Source: Sinimarinibacterium arenosum (GTDB lineage: Bacteria > Pseudomonadota > Gammaproteobacteria > Nevskiales > Nevskiaceae). From it: 64,000 nt of DNA. The translations under genes and the position numbers were made by a program. This document shows positions 46,784 to 47,977 of the stretch, one piece after another; the stretch's first letter is position 1; every line of letters starts with the position of its first letter. Location of the stretch: assembly GCF_005047655.1 (NCBI RefSeq), contig NZ_SUKF01000002.1, positions 372,001 through 436,000 of the forward strand. Reading direction: 5' to 3'. The notes beneath the pieces are model-generated. The model worked only from the letters and a program-made list of their open reading frames with translations, was not told the origin of the DNA and made no database searches.

Positions 46784-47977
46784 TTACTCGACGATCTTCG
46801 TCACGACGCCGGCGCCGACGGTACGACCACCCTCACGGATGGCGAAACGCACGCCTTCTTCCATCGCGATCGGGTTGATCAGCTCGACCTTCATCTGCAC
46901 GTTGTCGCCCGGCATGACCATTTCCTGCTCAAATTCGATCGAGCCGGTCACGTCCGTCGTGCGGAAGTAGAACTGCGGACGATAGCCCTTGAAGAACGGC
47001 GTGTGACGACCGCCCTCTTCCTTCGTCAGCACGTACACCTCACCCTCAAACTTCGAGTGCGGGTTGATCGAGCCGGGCTTGCACAGCACCTGGCCGCGCT
47101 CCACGTCTTCTTTCTTCGTGCCGCGCAGCAGGACGCCCACGTTGTCGCCCGCCTGGCCCTGGTCCAGCAGCTTGCGGAACATTTCAACGCCGGTCACCGT
47201 CGTCTTCACGGTCGGACGGATGCCGACAATCTCGACTTCCTCGCCAACCTTGACCACGCCGCGCTCAATACGCCCCGTCACCACCGTGCCGCGGCCCGAG
47301 ATCGAGAACACGTCTTCGATCGGCAGCAGGAACGGCTTGTCGGTTTCGCGCTCCGGCTCCGGAATCCAGGTATCGATCGCGTTGTACAGCTCTTCCAGCT
47401 TCGCAACCCACTCCGGCTCGCCAGCAATCGCCTTGGTCGCCGAACCACGGACCACAGGCGTGTTGTCGCCGTCGTAGCCGTACTTGCTCAGCAGATCGCG
47501 AACTTCCATCTCGACCAGCTCAAGCAGCTCTTCGTCTTCGACCATGTCGCACTTGTTCAGCCACACGACGATCTTCGGTACGTTCACCTGCTTCGCCAGC
47601 AGAACGTGCTCGCGCGTCTGCGGCATCGGGCCGTCAACCGCCGACACCACCAGAATCGCGCCATCCATCTGCGCCGCACCCGTGATCATGTTCTTCACGA
47701 AGTCCGCGTGTCCCGGGCAGTCAACGTGCGCGTAGTGACGGTTCTCCGTCTCGTACTCCACGTGCGAGGTCGCAATCGTCAGAATCTTCGTCGAGTCACG
47801 ACGTCCCTGCGATTCCGATGCCTTCGCAACCTGGTCGTACGGAACGTACAGACCGCCAAACTTGTCCGACGATACCTTCGTCAGCGCCGCCGTCGTCGTC
47901 GTCTTGCCATGGTCCACGTGACCAATCGTCCCCACGTTAACGTGCGGCTTCGTACGTGCAAATTTTTCCTTGGACAT
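46784..47977 (-). CDS. tuf: Elongation factor Tu with atypical switch I
   Basis: A 397-residue EF-Tu that delivers aminoacyl-tRNA to the ribosome. Intact: [11 protein letters not shown] (P loop), DCPGHADF (switch II entry), NKCD (144-type guanine motif), and domains 2 and 3 with [13 protein letters not shown] and [12 protein letters not shown]. Abnormal: the canonical switch I core (EEKARGITI in E. coli) is replaced at residues 52-68 by a longer sequence including [10 protein letters not shown], so RGITI is lost, while the Mg-coordinating Thr and the following ATSHVEYE are kept. Domain 3 also has a two-residue deletion ([12 protein letters not shown]). It closely follows fusA. Function as the main EF-Tu is likely, since the only other copy visible (63636 onward) is nearly identical where it can be compared. 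Confidence 0.97.

Follow-up and report, generated by a model that had tools for sequence, protein, structure and literature searches.

The genome of Sinimarinibacterium arenosum (Nevskiaceae) encodes an EF-Tu in which the RGITI segment of switch I is replaced by a longer loop of the GRRDxTKI type. From sequence comparison, we consider it probable that this protein is the sole working EF-Tu of the genome, that its switch I is a conserved alternative form, and that at least the N-terminal 240 or so residues were acquired from a Gemmatimonadota-like donor by an ancestor of most Nevskiaceae. For the EF-Tu of this family, we observed the sequence of the loop, its distribution and conservation, and a disagreement between the trees of the N-terminal part and of the neighbouring genes.

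Identification of the tuf genes

The window, that is, the whole 64,000-nucleotide stretch of DNA analysed, contains one complete tuf gene, tufA, located between fusA and rpsJ (Table 1), as is the gene for canonical EF-Tu. The ORF starts with ATG and encodes a full-length EF-Tu, which matched TIGR00485 at 709.2 bits, above the equivalog cut-off of 522.4, and contained all three domains PF00009, PF03144 and PF03143 of Pfam, each above its cut-off. The second tuf copy is found as a whole at G000:C12:435639-436829 (L002). Its protein is identical to the tufA product, and the five silent base differences between the two copies are all located in the last ~105 bases, the pattern that gene conversion would leave. 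The window comprises bases 372001-436000 of contig C12. In the genome holding it (4.5 Mb, 99% complete), no further EF-Tu was found: of the eight matches, one was a tuf fragment and five showed 23-35% identity, and, to judge by that level, these five would be other translational GTPases. The GRRD-type protein, present in two identical copies, is the sole EF-Tu found in this genome.

The tuf fragment lies upstream of the second copy on G000:C12, outside the window, where a run of 100 N is flanked, at its distal side, by 123 bases that repeat the 5' end of tuf. Gene duplication was considered for this fragment and rejected in favour of a scaffold-gap artefact. After tufA, a GC-rich stem-loop with a T run was observed at 46731-46757 on the minus strand, and the second copy is likewise followed by a similar structure.

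Table 1. Positions in the window of the genes and EF-Tu segments discussed
Feature	Position	Strand	Basis
tufA, EF-Tu with GRRDxTKI switch I, complete, 397 aa	46784..47977	-	ORF, profile matches, same protein from second copy
Alternative switch I, residues 48-70	47769..47836	-	Comparison with E. coli EF-Tu and RGITI proteins
Residues 1-240, foreign, Gemmatimonadota-like signal with loop masked	47258..47977	-	AU tests, identity profile
Residues 241-397, no origin rejected	46787..47257	-	AU tests
fusA (EF-G)	48029..50125	-	Proteobacterial in tree
rpsJ (S10)	46380..46697	-	93% identity to RGITI Nevskiaceae row, against 60% on average to Gemmatimonadota
Second tuf copy, 3' part, runs past window end	63636..64000	-	Identical protein; five silent base differences

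Sequence and register of the switch I loop

Compared with E. coli EF-Tu (7bbn_A), the switch I region of the window protein is longer by five residues and retains the Mg-binding Thr and SHVEYE, and the P loop reads GKTTTT instead of GKTTLT (Leu27 to Thr). The sequence-only reading had described a complete tuf with a rewritten switch I in these same terms, and the comparison bore out each of these points. It had also stated that both Arg and Gly of RGITI are gone, which holds for Gly but not for Arg. Counted from the upstream Tyr/Phe-Asp, R59 matches the Arg58 position of all 129 RGITI proteins analysed, the Arg being absent if the alignment is made from the other side. The five extra residues, D61-I65, are located directly after R59-R60, followed by L66 in the register of Ile60 and T67 in that of Thr61. 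Gly59 is truly replaced, by R60 or I65 depending on the side counted from. Asp50, Pro53 and Glu55 of E. coli EF-Tu are also replaced in this switch I. In contrast to these differences, V21 (Val20), D22 (Asp21), H90 (His84) and T67 are kept, and the three domains, the P-loop Asp, the Mg-binding Thr, the catalytic His and NKCD are all shared with canonical EF-Tu (E. coli TufA/TufB).

RGITI is described as a family-specific consensus of translational GTPases (PMC3150367). This G2 consensus is absent from the window EF-Tu, which reads KILTI, keeping the Thr and the Ile. The missing RGITI is a variant feature and no ground for exclusion from EF-Tu, because EFG II is also described as being without the consensus and yet is counted as a translational GTPase. 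Loss of RGITI is described for the archaeal SelB-like proteins as well (PMC3150367; PMC3037878). EFG II and the SelB-like proteins are divergent subfamilies with relaxed motifs, whereas the window protein is the only EF-Tu of its genome and carries a strictly conserved replacement that keeps the Thr. By every sequence test made, save the RGITI consensus, the window protein is EF-Tu.

Conservation and distribution of the loop types

A set of 255 proteins was typed, from which 24 were dropped (20 duplicates and 4 short), leaving 231 distinct full-length proteins. All 231 were sorted into one of three types, and the sorting thus hid no intermediates. The GRRD type follows the pattern AKASxxxGRRDxxKIxTI, located between an upstream Tyr-Asp and His-Val-Glu-Tyr; besides the window protein, 83 distinct proteins belong to it. 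Invariant among these 84 were Y47, D48, A51, A53, S54, G58, R59, R60, D61, K64, I65, T67, I68, H72, E74 and Y75, and invariant among the 129 RGITI proteins (E. coli numbers, no Met) were I49, D50, P53, E54, E55, R58, G59, T61, I62, H66 and Y69; the sorting expressions themselves contain parts of these motifs (AS, GRRD, KI and TI for the GRRD type, RG and TI for the RGITI type). The GKTTTT P loop was detected in 39/84 GRRD, 1/18 VRD and 0/129 RGITI proteins. The 84 GRRD proteins were derived from Nevskiaceae, Gemmatimonadota, Verrucomicrobiota, Planctomycetota and Auribacterota. By this sequence evidence, the GRRDxTKI loop is a coherent and conserved alternative class of switch I in several phyla.

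Among distinct proteins, the GRRD loop was carried by 34/50 in Gemmatimonadota, 20/30 in Verrucomicrobiota, 7/46 in Planctomycetota and the sole Auribacterota protein, counts that are not rates since the fetched loci were mostly the best matches per phylum; 20 lower-ranked places each were added to the Gemmatimonadota and Planctomycetota samples. The remaining Planctomycetota proteins were of the RGITI (22) or VRDxTK (17) type. The VRDxTK loop shares RDxTK, the subsequent TIA and the loss of RGITI with the window loop, but is three residues shorter than the GRRD type and is without KASESQ. The statement in the sequence-only reading that PVC EF-Tu carry a similar loop was well founded, within samples biased towards best matches. 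On a loop-free tree, the three types were scattered among the Planctomycetota loci (L175-L240). Over the 97 rows of this tree, of which 32 of the 94 inner branches were unsupported, at least 13 changes of loop type were counted, or 6 without the Planctomycetota rows.

In Nevskiaceae, a search at E<=1e-60 matched tuf in 33 of 58 genomes. The loop was read for 10 of 12 genera, of which eight carried GRRD (g1, g3, g4, g6, g8, g9, g10 and g12) and two RGITI (g2, G011; g5, G041). The GRRD loop is therefore not a lone event: it occurs in 8/12 genera and at both tuf loci, and its rows form one clade. The loop of the window was found in 32 of 34 typed loci, some of which represent the same gene twice, and the distinct full-length proteins comprised 22 GRRD and 2 RGITI. 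The family also includes Hydrocarboniphaga effusa, a relative in which the loop is the same (L038); tuf of G042 lies at contig coordinates identical to those in H. effusa AP103. At the level of the order, all nine loci read carried RGITI. In a draw of 369 Gammaproteobacteria, the window's genome alone matched at E<=1e-205, a search in which a tuf broken in a draft would be missed.

A sequencing, frameshift or assembly error was considered as the source of the loop and rejected, and we regard it as negligibly probable. In its favour nothing was found, the sole artefact being the scaffold gap described above; against it, the loop is identical in both tuf copies and is present in many separate genomes across several phyla. 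The sequence-only reading had likewise seen no frameshift, in agreement with the identical second copy and the typed Nevskiaceae loci. It had also named, as a finding that would count against its interpretation, RGITI in close relatives together with a sequencing error in this stretch. No such outcome was obtained for the stretch, although RGITI is carried by two genomes of the family, G011 and G041.

Two irregular loci were observed. A 258-residue tuf piece in genus g3 (G057:C152:15034-15798) showed 69% identity to the window protein, against 86% otherwise in that genus, and could be a contaminant or a tuf of the ordinary kind. G081, labelled as Gemmatimonadaceae, contains two GRRD tuf and one RGITI tuf (L061/L142, L135/L141); the EF-G beside the RGITI tuf groups with betaproteobacterial rows, and this tuf is probably on a mis-binned contig.

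Origin of the Nevskiaceae EF-Tu

In the EF-G tree, the 11 GRRD Nevskiaceae loci were placed among Proteobacteria (support 88), and the Gemmatimonadota formed a separate clade (99, starred). For the window's S10 and L3, identity to the sole RGITI Nevskiaceae row was 93% and 69%, respectively, while the means to Gemmatimonadota were 60% and 45% (32 loci). By these comparisons, EF-G, S10 and L3 near the window tuf are proteobacterial. The EF-G genes next to the Gemmatimonadota GRRD tuf form one clade of their own, unlike the proteobacterial EF-G of the window, which argues against these loci being mis-binned contigs.

In the loop-masked EF-Tu tree (97 of the 231 rows), in which many branches were weak, the Nevskiaceae GRRD rows formed one clade (100, starred) and the two RGITI Nevskiaceae rows grouped with Nevskiales rows (97, starred). 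In a smaller tree of 38 rows, the Nevskiaceae G domain was nested inside the Gemmatimonadota GRRD rows, which suggests transfer from Gemmatimonadota to Nevskiaceae, and the AU test of the G domain on these rows rejected grouping with Nevskiales (p 0.00026). The identity profile showed the Nevskiaceae consensus to be closer to Gemmatimonadota GRRD proteins than to Proteobacteria at residues 31-150 and 181-240; Gemmatimonadota EF-Tu is also closest to the window protein over the rest of residues 1-240, outside the shared loop.

The main AU tests were performed with the loop masked on 48 rows, using all Gemmatimonadota as the constraint group, for groupings with Proteobacteria, Verrucomicrobiota and Gemmatimonadota. 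For residues 1-240, of which the boundary was picked after the identity profile and the p values are modest, grouping with Proteobacteria was rejected (p 0.014), as was that with Verrucomicrobiota (p 0.018), but grouping with Gemmatimonadota was not (p 0.32). The G domain (residues 1-204) gave p values of 0.034, 0.040 and 0.35, respectively. For residues 241-397, no grouping was rejected (Proteobacteria p 0.59, Verrucomicrobiota p 0.38, Gemmatimonadota p 0.22), nor was any for the whole protein (p 0.36, 0.23 and 0.56, respectively). Earlier AU tests over the whole length without the loop, on 97 rows, also rejected none (Proteobacteria p 0.62, Nevskiales p 0.44, Gemmatimonadota GRRD p 0.70), and turned up trees that were better than the one from the free search. 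A quick constrained search on 57 rows rejected both GRRD Gemmatimonadota (p 0.038) and Proteobacteria (p 0.0098), and was superseded by the 48-row tests. These results suggest that the N-terminal part of the Nevskiaceae EF-Tu looks foreign, with Gemmatimonadota as the best fit.

That the gene is native to the gammaproteobacterial lineage, with only its loop exchanged or newly arisen, would agree with the AU test not rejecting a whole-length grouping with Proteobacteria. We regard this as quite improbable: grouping with Proteobacteria is rejected for residues 1-240 once the loop is masked, the G domain rejects both Nevskiales and all Proteobacteria, and it is implausible that the same 20-odd residues should have arisen independently. 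A tree placing the protein with ordinary gammaproteobacterial EF-Tu, named beforehand as a point that would speak against a foreign origin, was thus not obtained for residues 1-240, but such a placement is left unrejected over the whole length.

The leading idea of the sequence-only reading was a PVC-type tuf within a gammaproteobacterial str operon. The foreign N-terminal part and the proteobacterial operon were both recovered, but a Verrucomicrobiota donor was not. A donor among PVC or in an unsampled phylum, for example an Auribacterota-like one, appears unlikely to us; the loop is present in Verrucomicrobiota, Planctomycetota and Auribacterota, and residues 241-300 are nearer to the Auribacterota protein than to Gemmatimonadota, but Verrucomicrobiota were rejected for both residues 1-240 and the G domain.

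How much of the gene was replaced is a separate matter. It is possible, if short of an even chance, that the protein is a mosaic, in which the G domain alone (to about residue 240) is foreign and was recombined into a native tuf with proteobacterial domains 2 and 3. In the Nevskiaceae consensus, residues 241-270 and 271-300 are nearer to Proteobacteria (mean 0.79-0.85) than to Gemmatimonadota GRRD proteins (0.66 and 0.76); domain 2 of the window protein is by identity on the proteobacterial side, and residues 241-397 fit best with Proteobacteria (deltaL 0.3, against 6.9 for Gemmatimonadota). Against the mosaic, residues 241-397 reject no origin (p 0.22-0.59), identity at residues 301-330 returns toward Gemmatimonadota, and a permutation test of diagnostic sites was not significant (263 to 809 of 1000). 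The one strong domain 2 result, a rejection of a clade of Nevskiaceae with GRRD Gemmatimonadota (38 rows, p 0.00075), came from an unfair constraint and was dropped, because this constraint also broke up the Gemmatimonadota, in whose domain 2 the loop types are not separated; when the test was repeated with all Gemmatimonadota on 48 rows, the rejection was gone (p 0.18). Replacement of the whole gene from Gemmatimonadota, with domains 2-3 since diverged or converged, is somewhat less likely again. Over its full length the protein fits best with Gemmatimonadota (p 0.56), and the rows closest to domain 3 of the consensus are those of Gemmatimonadota (0.88), but domain 2 is nearest to Proteobacteria, with AU tests significant in neither direction. 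Accordingly, of the replacement of the native tuf that had been proposed at the outset, the part concerning residues 1-240 is supported; it may have extended to the entire gene, residues 241-397 excluding no origin.

In the explanation that we favour, an ancestor of most Nevskiaceae would have gained at least the N-terminal ~240 residues of EF-Tu from a Gemmatimonadota-like donor, after which both tuf loci would have carried the acquired form, presumably held alike by gene conversion.

EF-Ts of genomes with the GRRD loop

In an EF-Ts alignment of 28 genomes, an insertion just before the KPxxI motif was detected in 9/9 GRRD Nevskiaceae, 0/8 RGITI Nevskiales and 0/11 Gemmatimonadota (among the loci with the insertion are L282, L281, L284 and L286). 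Its lengths were 2, 2, 10, 10, 16, 16, 54, 54 and 54 residues, with 2 in the EF-Ts of the window genome (L282, G000:C18:270770-271660) and 54 in G009, G012 and G066. From E. coli EF-Ts, we take the insertion point to be the coiled-coil tip. Lys207 to Lys222 of EF-Ts are described as lying within the coiled coil and as modelled near the tRNA elbow (PMC9071432). Because the GRRD Nevskiaceae are one clade, the insertion represents one coincidence of events and not nine; it is a lead toward co-adaptation with the loop, not proof, and the spread of its lengths may as well reflect relaxed constraint.

In Gemmatimonadota, EF-Ts occurs in a long form (286-299 aa) and a short form without the middle part (197-208 aa; lengths read in 11 genomes), with 22 long and 11 short among GRRD genomes and 3 long and 13 short among RGITI genomes (Fisher p 0.002). 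This association gives no support to co-adaptation, because there is a single change of loop type on the Gemmatimonadota tree, and hence one independent pair; the EF-Ts form changes at least four times on the 47-row EF-Tu tree. In Verrucomicrobiota, the 21 GRRD and 8 RGITI genomes all had the long form and the VRD-type genome G240 the short form (the RGITI genome G273 gave no match). The long/short counts in Planctomycetota were 4/2 for GRRD, 11/5 for VRD and 6/14 for RGITI, excluding G196, which was partial, and G202, which had no match.

Predicted function of the alternative loop

The GRRD-type protein is most likely a working EF-Tu, because the Mg-binding Thr, the Leu gate and the catalytic His are all in place. 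The residue before the Thr is described as a hydrophobic gate, and the Gly two residues before the Thr as binding a monovalent cation via its main-chain carbonyl, the cation being held also by the P-loop Asp (PMC4509514; PMC4342817). His84 is described as acting between Val20 and Ile60 (PMC3037878). In the window protein, T67 would bind Mg2+ and the gamma-phosphate, L66 would form one wing of the hydrophobic gate in place of Ile60, and D61-I65 would lengthen the link from R59 to the Thr. GTP hydrolysis would then be of the ordinary kind, with the tether lengthened. An Ile stands two residues before the Thr, at the site of the cation-binding Gly of other translational GTPases, and altered use of monovalent cations is predicted for GRRD EF-Tu; the site itself may survive because its ligand is a main-chain carbonyl, and the cation is reported to add little to catalysis (PMC4509514). 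Aminoacyl-tRNA delivery would be normal, with the geometry of switch I changed and the loop accommodated by EF-Ts. In an AlphaFold model of the variant, pLDDT was under 50 at residues 53-71, and no conclusions were drawn from its comparison with the model of an RGITI relative, since the alignments differed in depth (93 and 49 rows) and confidence in the switches was low.

The Lit protease is described as cleaving EF-Tu between Gly59 and Ile60 (PMC3014915). This bond is absent from GRRD EF-Tu, for which resistance to Lit is therefore predicted.

Implications for the evolution of EF-Tu

Among the matches listed in a search of open-licence literature by titles and the starts of abstracts, none was about a GRRD switch I loop of EF-Tu. 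The 2001 study of planctomycete EF-Tu by Jenkins and Fuerst may well include the planctomycete form. EF-Tu is the textbook informational protein that resists transfer, and growth of E. coli with one tuf is described as being supported by gammaproteobacterial versions of EF-Tu only (PMC5574714).

We also entertain, as a doubtful speculation, a wider scheme in which switch I modules (RGITI, GRRDxTKI and VRDxTK) would have been exchanged between phyla, a Gemmatimonadota G domain would have been spliced onto proteobacterial domains 2-3, and the coiled-coil tip of EF-Ts would have been remodelled to fit. Escape from RGITI-targeting enzymes such as the Lit phage-exclusion protease might be one reason for the spread, because the exchange removes the bond that Lit cuts.

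The GRRD loop represents a conserved alternative to RGITI inside EF-Tu itself, and this natural comparison makes the roles of Gly59, the monovalent cation and the length of switch I testable. In Nevskiaceae, the sole EF-Tu appears to have had its G-domain part, at the least, replaced across phyla in a lineage that subsequently diversified into at least eight genera.
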